Source: Silicimonas sp. (GTDB lineage Bacteria; Pseudomonadota; Alphaproteobacteria; Rhodobacterales; Rhodobacteraceae). From it: DNA of 64,000 nucleotides. Position numbers and translations under genes: made by a program. Of the stretch, positions 25,130-32,480 are shown piece by piece. Under the pieces are notes generated by a model. That model saw only the letters and a list, made by a program, of their open reading frames with translations, was not told the DNA's origin and searched no databases. Where the stretch lies: positions 1 through 64,000 of the forward strand of contig JAJDZT010000153.1 in NCBI GenBank assembly GCA_022824525.1, read 5' to 3'. How positions within the stretch are numbered: the stretch's first letter is position 1; the number at the start of each line of letters is the position of its first letter.

Positions 25130-26383
25130 TCAACGCAAGGCTCTGCCCTTGATGATTGCATCTGATCCAAACCGAGCGCGAATATCGTCGGAAGCACGTT
25201 CCGCGCCGGCGCGTTGCCGTGCCTGAGGGTCCAGAAGATCACCTTCGCTGTCGGCCATATCGGCATCCGAAAGGTGTGAAATGCCCACCCCTACCAACCG
25301 ATACGGCCCCTCGTCTCCAACCTGGTCGAAGAGCGCTCGCGCCGTCCGATAGATGCGATCGGCAATCTGTGTCGGATCCGTCAAGCGCGATTGTCGCGTA
25401 AGACTGCTGTGATTGGCGCGTTTCAGCTTGAGCGTCACAACATGCCCGGCTTTCTCCTTGGCCTTCGCTCTATCGGCAACATTCTCGGCAAGGCGCCAGA
25501 TATGGCCATCCAGAATATCAGGATCGTTGGTGTCTTCGCCAAAAGTGGTTTCGTTGGAGATCGACTTCACCGGGGCATGAGCGCTGACGCGGCGGCGATC
25601 CTCCCCGCGCGCAAGATGCCAGAGCCGTTCCCCCATGGACCCGAACCGCGCCACGAGGTCCGTTTTCTCCCAACGGATCAGATCGGAAAATGTGCGGATA
25701 CCGACCTTTTCCAGCGAGGCCTGTGCCTGATGTCCAACGCCCCAAATCAAGCGCACCGGTTTGTCATGCAGGAACTCGGCCGTTTCCGCCTTCCCAATAA
25801 TGGCAAAGCCTCTTGGCTTATCGATATCGGACGCAACCTTGGCAAGAAACTTGTTGTGAGAAAGGCCGATCGAGCCGGATATGCCAAGCTCCGTCTCCAT
25901 GGCCCGCACAAGACCAGCCAACATGACAGCCGGTGGCTTTCCGTGAAGCCGGGCCGTTCCGGTGAGATCAAGAAAAGCCTCATCCAATGACAGCGGCTCA
26001 ACAACCGGTGTCAGATCATCCATCAACGCGCGTATCTGTCGGCTGACATCCACGTAGGCGCTCATCCGCCCCCTGACGACGACCGCGTCCGGGCAGAGCT
26101 TCAGAGCCTGAAACATCGGCATGGCAGATCGCACACCCTTGATCCGCGCAATGTAGCAAGCGGTGGAGACCACGCCGCGCCTCCCACCACCAATGATGAC
26201 AGGTTTGTCGCGTAACTCCGGATTGTCGCGCTTTTCGACGGAGGCATAGAACGCGTCACAGTCCATATGCGCAATTGAGAGATCGAAAAGCTCCGGATGC
26301 TCAAGAACGCGCGGTCGGCCACAGGACGGACAACGTGGGCCGGTCTCGAAGGTCTCAAGGCAATCGCGGCAAAGAGCGGGCAT
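25130..26383 (-). CDS. dinB: DNA polymerase IV (DinB, Y-family) with N-terminal CxxC...CxxC ribbon
   Basis: IAHMDCDAFYASVEKRDNPELRDKPVIIGG, EPLSLDEAFLDLTG, GLSHNKFLAKVASD; N-term CRDCLETFETGPRCPSC. Confidence 0.95.
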   Translation of the reverse strand: MPALCRDCLETFETGPRCPSCGRPRVLEHPELFDLSIAHMDCDAFYASVEKRDNPELRDKPVIIGGGRRGVVSTACYIARIKGVRSAMPMFQALKLCPDAVVVRGRMSAYVDVSRQIRALMDDLTPVVEPLSLDEAFLDLTGTARLHGKPPAVMLAGLVRAMETELGISGSIGLSHNKFLAKVASDIDKPRGFAIIGKAETAEFLHDKPVRLIWGVGHQAQASLEKVGIRTFSDLIRWEKTDLVARFGSMGERLWHLARGEDRRRVSAHAPVKSISNETTFGEDTNDPDILDGHIWRLAENVADRAKAKEKAGHVVTLKLKRANHSSLTRQSRLTDPTQIADRIYRTARALFDQVGDEGPYRLVGVGISHLSDADMADSEGDLLDPQARQRAGAERASDDIRARFGSDAIIKGRALR

Positions 26384-26497
26384 CAGAGGTCCAAATTATC
26401 GCGCTTCGGTTTCTTGAGACAGGTCTTTCTTGCCGAAGTAGCTTTCGATCACTGGAACGGTGTCTGGACCAAGGCCGCAAGATCAGACGGGAGGTTC

Positions 26498-26523
26498 GTC
26501 CGGGGGAGTGATTCCCCCCGGAC
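26498..26523. repeat. 9-bp perfect stem hairpin GTCCGGGGG-N8-CCCCCGGAC between the 56-aa ORF and dinB
   Basis: Direct reading; no T-tract on either side. Confidence 0.85.
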
Positions 26524-26554
26524 CAGCCGGACACAAAGGCAATCACGGCGCTGC

Positions 26555-26725
26555 TTAACGGCCGCCTGTGCGACCCGGGAACCTTGGTGGTCGCCCTCCT
26601 CGCGTCTGACCGTTTTTTCGTTGTCCTTTGCCACGCGGGTCGAACCGCGCAGGGCTCTTTCTAGGGCGGACAGGCAAGAGAGATACGGCCCCTGACACAG
26701 GGGGTTTCTTTGAGTTGTTGGGCAT
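26555..26725 (-). CDS. Small basic protein, 56 aa: MPNNSKKPPVSGAVSLLPVRPRKSPARFDPRGKGQRKNGQTRGGRPPRFPGRTGGR
   Basis: Untracked ORF with SD GAAAGG upstream of the ATG; Arg/Lys/Gly-rich, RNA-binding-like composition. Confidence 0.6.
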   Translation of the reverse strand: MPNNSKKPPVSGAVSLLPVRPRKSPARFDPRGKGQRKNGQTRGGRPPRFPGRTGGR

Positions 26726-26781
26726 TTTCGTGCCTTTCGATGCAATGGATCGTTGCGGGCATGTTGCCCGCGAGGGCGGTG

Positions 26782-26799
26782 TCAGCCGAGTTTGTCCAT
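26782..26799 (-). CDS. Upstream mini-ORF 2: M-D-K-L-G-stop with SD AAGGAG (26810-26815)
   Basis: Duplicated AAGGAGTGCAC(A/T)GAC(A/G)ATGGAC module. Confidence 0.5.
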   Translation of the reverse strand: MDKLG

Positions 26800-26856
26800 C
26801 GTCAGTGCACTCCTTGAGAAAGTGACGCCGCCAAGAGCGGCAAAGCTACGCGCGGA

Positions 26857-26874
26857 TTAAGCGGCTTGGTCCAT
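26857..26874 (-). CDS. Upstream mini-ORF 1: M-D-Q-A-A-stop with SD AAGGAG (26885-26890)
   Basis: Duplicated module; same 10-nt SD-ATG spacing as mini-ORF 2. Confidence 0.5.
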   Translation of the reverse strand: MDQAA

Positions 26875-26902
26875 TGTCTGTGCACTCCTTCTCAAGAGCC
26901 TC

Positions 26903-26932
26903 TTTAGTGCCCGTTAATCTCGCGTGTGTCAA
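26903..26932 (-). promoter_or_regulatory. Candidate sigma70-type promoter: TTGACA -35 (26927-26932), 18-bp spacer, ACTAAA weak -10 (26903-26908)
   Basis: Perfect -35 hexamer just upstream of the tandem uORF leader. Confidence 0.4.
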
Positions 26933-27015
26933 ATTCGGCAAGTTTTCGCAATGCACTGGCCGCTGCCAAGTCGCGACCCTATCTCAAGCGCAAAGCCTCA
27001 AACGGAGAATGATTG

Positions 27016-27255
27016 ATGCAGTGCCCAATTGACGGAACTCAGCTTGTTATGTCGGACCGCCAAGGTGTCGAAATCGATTACTGCCCTCAGTGCCGAGGCG
27101 TCTGGCTGGACCGCGGCGAGTTGGACAAGATCATTGAGAGAAGCGCGCAAGCGTCTCCCCCGCCACCTCCGCAATCGACACGCGATTACCGCGAACCGCG
27201 CGAACGCAAGAAGAAGGGCATGAGCAGCTTCCTCGACGACATTTTCGACTTCTGA
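27016..27255 (+). CDS. TFIIB-type zinc-ribbon protein
   Basis: MQCPIDGTQLVMSDRQGVEIDYCPQCRGVWLDRGELDKIIE. Confidence 0.92.
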   Translation: MQCPIDGTQLVMSDRQGVEIDYCPQCRGVWLDRGELDKIIERSAQASPPPPPQSTRDYREPRERKKKGMSSFLDDIFDF

Positions 27256-30719: not shown

Positions 30720-32480
30720 TTAGAACAAGAAATATCTCTGCGCCATCGGCAACTCCGATGCAGGCTCACATGTCAGAAGTTCACCATCCGCGCGCACTTC
30801 GTAGGTTTCGGGATGAACCTCGACCTCAGGAGTGGCGTCGTTCAACAGCAAATCCTTCTTTCCGATGTCGCGGGTGTTTCGCACCGCAATCGTGGATTTG
30901 GCGAGACCGAGCGCATCACCAATCCCGGCTGCTGCGGCAGCCTCGGAAACGAATGTGACGGCAGAATTCTCAACCGAGCGACCGTAAGCCCCGAACATCG
31001 GGCGGGTATAAACCGGTTGCGGTGTCGGAATGGACGCATTCGGATCACCCATCTGGGCGCAGGCGATCGTCCCACCCAAAAGCACCATCTCGGGTTTCAC
31101 GCCGAAGAAGGCCGGGCTCCAAAGACAGATGTCGGCACGTTTACCGACCTCGATCGAACCGATCTCATGCCCAATCCCATGAGCGATCGCCGGGTTGATG
31201 GTGTACTTCGCCACATACCGGCGAACCCGGAAATTGTCGTTGTCGCCGGTTTCTTCGGCAAGCCGCCCACGCTGCTTCTTCATCTTGTCAGCTGTCTGCC
31301 AAGTGCGGATCACGACCTCGCCCACGCGACCCATGGCCTGGCTGTCGGACGCAATGATGCTGAAGGCTCCCATGTCATGCAGAATGTCCTCAGCCGCGAT
31401 GGTTTCGCGGCGGATACGGCTTTCAGCAAAGGCCACATCCTCCGGGATCGATTTGTCGAGGTGGTGACACACCATGAGCATATCCAGATGCTCTTCCAAC
31501 GTATTCACGGTGAAAGGCCGCGTCGGGTTGGTCGAGGACGGCAGCACGTGATCCTCGCCGCAGATCTTGATGATGTCGGGGGCATGCCCGCCGCCCGCGC
31601 CTTCGGTGTGGAACGCGTGGATCGTGCGGCCTTTCATGGCCTTGACCGTGTTCTCCACAAAACCGCTTTCGTTAAGCGTGTCGGTGTGGATCATCACCTG
31701 CACATCCATGGCATCGGCCACGGACAAACAGCAATCGATGGCACCTGGCGTCGTGCCCCAGTCCTCGTGCAGCTTCAACGCGCAGGCACCGGCATTCACC
31801 TGTTCCTCAAGTGCCGCTGGCAGCGAGGCGTTCCCCTTCCCGGCAAATGCCAAATTCATCGGGAAGGCGTCGGCGGCCTGCAACATGCGCCCAATGTGCC
31901 AAGGCCCGGGCGTGCAGGTCGTGGCCAATGTACCATGCGCCGGCCCCGTGCCACCGCCCAACATGGTTGTAAGACCCGAATGAAGCGCATCCTCGATCTG
32001 CTGAGGGCAGATGAAATGGATATGGCTGTCGAAGCCACCCGCGGTCAGAATGCGCCCTTCACCGGCTATGGCTTCGGTTCCCGGTCCAACGATAATATCC
32101 ACGCCGGGCTGAGTGTCCGGGTTGCCAGCCTTGCCAATCCCGGCAATACGCCCGTCCTTCAAGCCAATATCCGCCTTGTAGATACCTGTATGATCGACCA
32201 CGAGCGCATTGGTGATAACAGTATCGACAGCACCTTCCGCACGGGTCGTCTGAGCCTGCCCCATGCCATCGCGGATGACCTTGCCACCCCCAAATTTTAC
32301 CTCTTCGCCGTAGACCGCGGCGTTCTGACCAGTGCCGCCCGAGACTGCCGCGCCCACGGCTTCTGCAGTGAGATCCCGCTCGACCTCAATGATGAGATCG
32401 GTATCTGCAAGCCGCACTTTGTCACCGGTAGTCGGGCCAAACATGGCAGCATAGTCGGAACGGGAGATTTTGGCTGGCAT
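30720..32480 (-). CDS. ureC: Urease subunit alpha
   Basis: [51 protein letters not shown]. Confidence 0.98.

Follow-up and report, generated by a model that had tools for sequence, protein, structure and literature searches.

Two near-identical modules, each made up of a Shine-Dalgarno (SD) sequence, a five-codon ORF, and a hairpin, stand in tandem in front of a short ORF of Silicimonas sp. Do they form the 5' leader of a real gene, and if so, what could such a leader do? The window, that is, the whole 64,000-nucleotide stretch that was analyzed, comprises positions 1-64,000 of contig JAJDZT010000153.1 (GCA_022824525.1), and the leader lies on its minus strand (Table 1). An earlier note had described the modules, a 10-nt spacing between SD and ATG in both, and the two hairpins that follow them; all of these elements are present, with the spacing and both hairpins exact in the sequence. 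A repeat finder identified the two module copies (25 nt, 88% identical, spacing 75) as the sole direct-repeat family in 26380-27020, and the SD-start motif, at ≤2 mismatches, occurs in only these two places in the whole genome. We suggest, with roughly even confidence, that the region forms the 5' leader of a Rhodobacteraceae small basic protein gene that had not been described before, and that it works as a cis-acting translation sensor. The anatomy of the leader comes from comparative sequence, and from it we infer the regulation, its direction, and its signal.

Table 1. Features of the leader and its gene in the window, with the corresponding observations at homologous loci.
Feature	Position	Strand	Observations
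-35 element TTGACA	26927-26932	-	TTGA(C) 56-60 nt before the mini-ORF1 start at 37 of the 40 homologous loci, usually with a spacer of 17-18 nt
-10-like element CACTAA, 17-nt spacer	26904-26909	-	predicted 5' end ~26897
5' arm of stem A, UCUUGAGAAGG, predicted transcript 5' end	26887-26897	-	covariation with 3' arm, z 8.4, 31 thinned loci
Module 1: SD1 AAGGAG (26890-26885) and mini-ORF1 MDQAA-stop, ATGGACCAAGCCGCTTAA (26874-26857, ATG 26874)	26857-26890	-	
Inter-mini-ORF hairpin GCCGC/GCGGC	26827-26841	-	weaker conservation, z 3.0
3' arm of stem A, CUUUCUCAAGG, overlapping the first bases of SD2	26812-26822	-	
Module 2: SD2 AAGGAG (26815-26810) and mini-ORF2 MDKLG-stop, ATGGACAAACTCGGCTGA (26799-26782, ATG 26799)	26782-26815	-	
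Hairpin GCGGGCA/TGCCCGC shortly 3' of the mini-ORF2 stop	26755-26771	-	hairpins of this region covary in homologues, z 6.1
Main ORF SD, GAAAGG	26733-26738	-	conserved G-rich SD column, -10 to -7
Main ORF, 56-aa basic protein MPNNSKK...RGGRPPRFPGRTGGR	26555-26725	-	homologues share its N- and C-terminal motifs; pooled pN/pS 0.33
Hairpin D within main ORF, CCCCTG-TGT-CAGGGG, from +23	26689-26703	-	covaries across 40 loci, z 6.4
GC-rich inverted repeat 3' of main ORF, probable transcript end	26493-26528	-	without U-tract, weak evidence

A DNA search of the Rhodobacteraceae yielded three further loci with the same tandem layout (L070, L074, and L095), and a model built on the sequence alone of these four leaders recovered more members when applied to 394 genomes of the family. 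When the exact 19-base pattern GGAGNNNNCTGACAATGGACNNNNNNNNNTGA was scanned over 85,462 genomes, 26 stretches matched, 25 of them in Rhodobacteraceae, in the genera Flavimaricola, Tateyamaria, Tabrizicola, Boseongicola, Vannielia, Oceanicola, Silicimonas, Litoreibacter, and others. All 25 stand in front of the gene for the small basic protein, with mini-ORF1 found in every case in which the contig extends far enough to include it. The lone match outside the family (L145, Thermoanaerobaculia) has neither an upstream mini-ORF nor the small protein and was taken as chance. Using a protein profile on 391 family genomes, one per genus, we obtained matches in 28 at E ≤ 0.01, of which 21 had an E below 1e-5 and an intact frame; at this sensitivity ~5-6% of the genera carry the gene, and divergent copies may be missed. 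The element is absent from most genera, a point that speaks against the sensor reading. Forty curated Rhodobacteraceae leaders have a common layout: a sigma-70-like promoter, the predicted 5' end, mini-ORF1, mini-ORF2, hairpins, and the basic protein. Judged by this conservation across dozens of genera of a mostly marine family, the leader is real and not a product of chance. A chance repeat was rejected given homologous loci in many genera, as was a recent duplication or degraded gene start, because the two-module layout is ancient in the family and the sequences differ.

The ORF that follows had been put forward as a 56-aa basic protein, and it is a real, constrained gene. Its homologues are basic proteins of 53-65 aa with an MPK-like N-terminus and the C-terminal motif PG[RK]xGxR, and eight pairs of relatives gave a pooled pN/pS of 0.33, indicating a coding gene under purifying selection. 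The protein has no match in Pfam, NCBIfam, PHROGs, or PDB; in Pfam, the window protein and five homologues gave no match at E up to 1, and so the protein is not assigned to DUF1127. A search with the window protein alone returned chance matches only. Structure prediction gave a pTM of 0.17 with no secondary structure, from which we read the protein as probably disordered. Its charge, taken by itself, suggests ribosome or RNA binding.

In most loci, the gene lies beside a divergent gene for a DHH-DHHA2 protein (ppaC, which resembles a manganese-dependent pyrophosphatase), with a DUF2161 gene downstream. None of 30 other family genomes inspected has the element at ppaC, and in the window genome ppaC and the DUF2161 gene are adjacent without it. 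There the element has a zinc-ribbon gene on one side and dinB on the other; in the congener G002, a short spacer takes its place. Four congeneric genomes, three of them <90% complete, gave no match to the small protein. The note had asked whether close relatives lose the duplication: these four lack the whole element, and distant genera keep the duplication, so the absence among congeners reflects gain or loss of the entire gene rather than decay of the duplication. Gain by transfer or relocation, or repeated loss, is possible; a mobile or phage element was rejected, as there was no plasmid match and no PHROGs match. The neighboring dinB (25130-26383, minus strand) encodes a Y-family DNA polymerase with an N-terminal CxxC...CxxC extension, MPALCRDCLETFETGPRCPSCGRP, that is conserved in relatives. 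Rfam searches gave no leader match in the whole window at the gathering threshold or in six homologous loci at E up to 0.5. Elsewhere in the window, 31988-32277 on the plus strand matched 5_ureB_sRNA (RF02514, 121.9 bits), antisense to a urease alpha-subunit-like ORF at 30720-32480 on the minus strand.

What is kept in the two mini-ORFs is their start, stop, and spacing. A length of exactly five codons holds for mini-ORF1 in 37/40 loci and for mini-ORF2 in 37/39 (jointly 74/79); these and the following counts are descriptive and inflated by the relatedness of the loci. The exceptions are mini-ORFs of 9, 11, and 13 codons, each seen once, and one genome (L109, G358:C1, region 1448-1603) in which both mini-ORFs have three codons, MEK and MDK, as if the lengths co-vary. 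In another locus (L157, G186:C260), the mini-ORF2 stop is lost and the leader and small protein are otherwise retained. Mini-ORF1 starts with ATG in 36 loci and GTG in 4, and it stops with TGA (22), TAA (13), or TAG (5); mini-ORF2 stops with TGA (36) or TAA (3). Codon 2 is GAC in 65/79, and codons 3, 4, and 5 each encode ten or more different residues, giving peptides such as MDQAA, MDKLG, MDLHR, and MDMFG. Changing stop codons at a fixed position would be hard to explain except by termination. The five-codon length with changing codons, together with the use of all three stops in mini-ORF1, argues for selection on initiation and termination and not on the peptide sequence. Because codons 3-5 vary freely, the peptides are not the signal, and a peptide-sensing leader was rejected. 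Taken with the stem described below, the pattern points to selection for initiation, termination, and a reciprocal stem. The proposed 5' leader appears to contain two genuine mini-ORFs, with start, SD, five-codon length, and stop conserved across genera. The note had gone further and read the region as a ribosome-dependent attenuator or translation-sensing leader, possibly with decoy SDs; that reading is supported in part, in the leader and its components, with the attenuator and the decoys remaining conjectural.

A TTGACA element had been proposed to place the 5' end just before the first SD. The promoter is where the note had put it, and the position of its -35 element is fixed in the homologues (Table 1). 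Across loci, the predicted transcription start falls at -23 from AUG1 (IQR -23 to -22), at the start of stem A. The fit was optimized over positions with no null search, so that the tight clustering, rather than any individual score, is the evidence. A generic promoter scan made no call at the window promoter because of its weak -10 (CACTAA).

In stem A, which was absent from the earlier note, the 12 nt preceding SD1 are base-paired with those preceding SD2. We scanned 12-nt windows over the leader in 31 loci thinned to <80% similarity, comparing pairing within a locus to pairing with the partner window from other loci. The best of the 950 window pairs, by far the strongest covariation in the leader, joined the two segments that lie at -24 to -13, one of mini-ORF1 and the other of mini-ORF2 (z 8.4; the stem had first been spotted by eye in four loci, which are included in the scan), an arrangement symmetrical relative to both start codons. 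The second-best pair (z 5.0) was stem A again, against a spread of z 1.14 over all pairs. For all 40 loci, stem A gave 15.25 versus 12.30 (s.d. 0.39), and 0 of 20,000 permutations reached this value. Covariation is also seen for hairpins near the mini-ORF2 stop (z 6.1, versus -0.2 and 1.5 in shifted control windows) and for a hairpin in main-ORF codons 6-16 (z 6.4, versus 0.2 and 2.7 in controls shifted by 30 and 60 nt). In the window and the homologous loci, the distance of this last hairpin (26689-26703, minus strand) from its start codon is similar to that of the hairpin after mini-ORF2.

In folding calculations, addition of the 3' arm paired the 5'-terminal 10 nt, of which the unpaired fraction fell from 0.60 to 0.34 (p 2e-7), in line with the proposed sensor. 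This pairing, together with the coincidence of the predicted 5' end (-23 from AUG1) with the start of stem A, would also suit a 5'-end stabilizer, in which stem A blocks 5'-end-dependent decay, the SDs and mini-ORFs hold shielding ribosomes, and the output is mRNA lifetime with no dedicated sensing. The ompA mRNA has a 5'-terminal stabilizing stem-loop. Stem A is like it in lying at the extreme (predicted) 5' end; unlike it, stem A encloses mini-ORF1 and abuts two SD sequences. We consider this explanation unlikely, because a stem alone would suffice for it, leaving the two mini-ORFs and their fixed five-codon length unexplained, and because the 5' ends on which it depends are predicted.

The SDs of the mini-ORFs are stronger and more conserved, by information content, than the main SD, and the mini-ORFs do not overlap the main ORF, lying 67-155 nt upstream of it. 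(In locus L112, G203:C1, the spacer between mini-ORF2 and the main ORF has grown to 137 nt by tandem GC-rich units containing the hairpin region.) Both observations would fit a decoy, in which two strong ribosome-binding sites (RBSs) capture ribosomes and the weaker main RBS is poorly translated, a constitutive damping without a switch. However, at 67-155 nt from the main ORF, released ribosomes would not necessarily be in competition with its RBS, and a decoy needs neither the covarying stem A nor a fixed ORF length, making it quite unlikely in our estimation.

In 47% of loci, the stretch from mini-ORF2 to the main ORF contains terminator-like structures, compared to 18% of dinucleotide shuffles, and hairpins there covary. 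Such structures are what classical attenuation would require, with the hairpin after mini-ORF2 and a U-rich tract forming an intrinsic terminator that ribosomes on mini-ORF2 prevent or permit. Yet they are absent in half of the loci, the window included, and occur at comparable density (38%) between the two mini-ORFs. Furthermore, the covariation scan, which covered long-range pairings, revealed stem A and no competing conserved pairing of the anti-terminator type. Intrinsic attenuation is possible in some loci but not universal, and we think it very unlikely to account for the leader. Beyond the mini-ORF1 stop, C outnumbers G in the leader: the C/G ratio is 1.57 in the stretch separating the mini-ORFs, where 93% of loci have C>G, compared with 0.76 in the DNA preceding the leader. 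A C-rich, G-poor sequence would be expected of a Rho-loading region, although this bias is not specific to Rho sites.

Just as improbable is an effect in trans, whether through the ORF products, through peptidyl-tRNA drop-off, which short mini-genes favor, or through the transcript acting as a regulatory RNA besides being an mRNA: several RNA hairpins are conserved, one of them inside the coding region, but the peptide sequences vary, and the genome-wide pattern scan found the leader only upstream of the small-protein gene, which favors action in cis.

We return to the cis-acting translation sensor. When a ribosome was modeled as blocking the mini-ORF1 region, the mini-ORF2 platform opened from 0.34 to 0.49 (29 loci up, 1 down), a result that is partly built in, as the stem partner is itself blocked. 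With a ribosome on either mini-ORF, equilibrium folding gave no average accessibility change at the main RBS or at the other SD core, and the main SD showed no excess pairing with the leader. Equilibrium folding thus lends no support to the idea that occupying one mini-ORF with a ribosome exposes the main RBS or the SD core of the other mini-ORF, and purely translational coupling is unsupported; since the main RBS is unaffected, termination or decay is the likelier output. In the sensor we envisage, initiation by a ribosome on mini-ORF1, shortly after SD1 has been transcribed, would prevent stem A and keep the mini-ORF2 site open. If initiation were slow or ribosomes scarce, stem A would fold, hiding the flanks of both SDs and sequestering the 5' end. 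Whichever state the C-rich leader then adopts would decide synthesis of the small protein, most likely via premature transcription termination or mRNA decay, and the level of the protein would follow translation status.

Several known leaders share parts of this design. In trpL and tnaC, a short translated leader ORF is followed by hairpins upstream of the gene. The order is the same here; however, there are no control-codon runs and no conserved arrest peptide, but two ORFs of fixed length and free sequence. In another alphaproteobacterium, Sinorhizobium meliloti, a small basic protein gene of the DUF1127 family is controlled by translation of a leader uORF, with RNA structure at the uORF ribosome-binding site and termination between uORF and gene, and the system has been interpreted as monitoring ribosome availability and translation efficiency (PMC12218461). 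That attenuator has one uORF, whose C-rich early codons are regulatory and pair with the uORF RBS. Here there are two five-codon uORFs, the conserved pairing joins the flanks of two SDs, and the protein matches no Pfam family. By analogy, this precedent and the excess of C over G in the leader favor translation-gated termination. The E. coli topAI-yjhQP leader likewise has a short uORF that reports translation stress to downstream genes; this single uORF is reported to sense ribosome-targeting antibiotics through ribosome stalling at specific codons (PMC12121999), whereas codons 3-5 are not conserved here.

uORF leaders are known in bacteria, but we did not find a description of a conserved pair of five-codon, free-sequence ORFs with a covarying stem at the predicted 5' end. 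Searches of the openly licensed literature turned up no account of a twin mini-ORF leader, and an earlier description elsewhere is possible. The analysis also uncovers a small basic protein family that has no entry in the family libraries searched. Because only start, stop, and spacing are kept and the peptide is irrelevant, the leader would isolate initiation and termination as the sensed steps. A further reading, which we consider rather doubtful, is that the leader gauges free ribosomes cooperatively at two sites: stem A would lock the two identical mini-ORF start sites together, a ribosome on one would open the other, and the response to ribosome supply would be steep, with the protein being a new ribosome- or RNA-associated factor. 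If this were true, the controlled small protein would close a feedback loop on translation.
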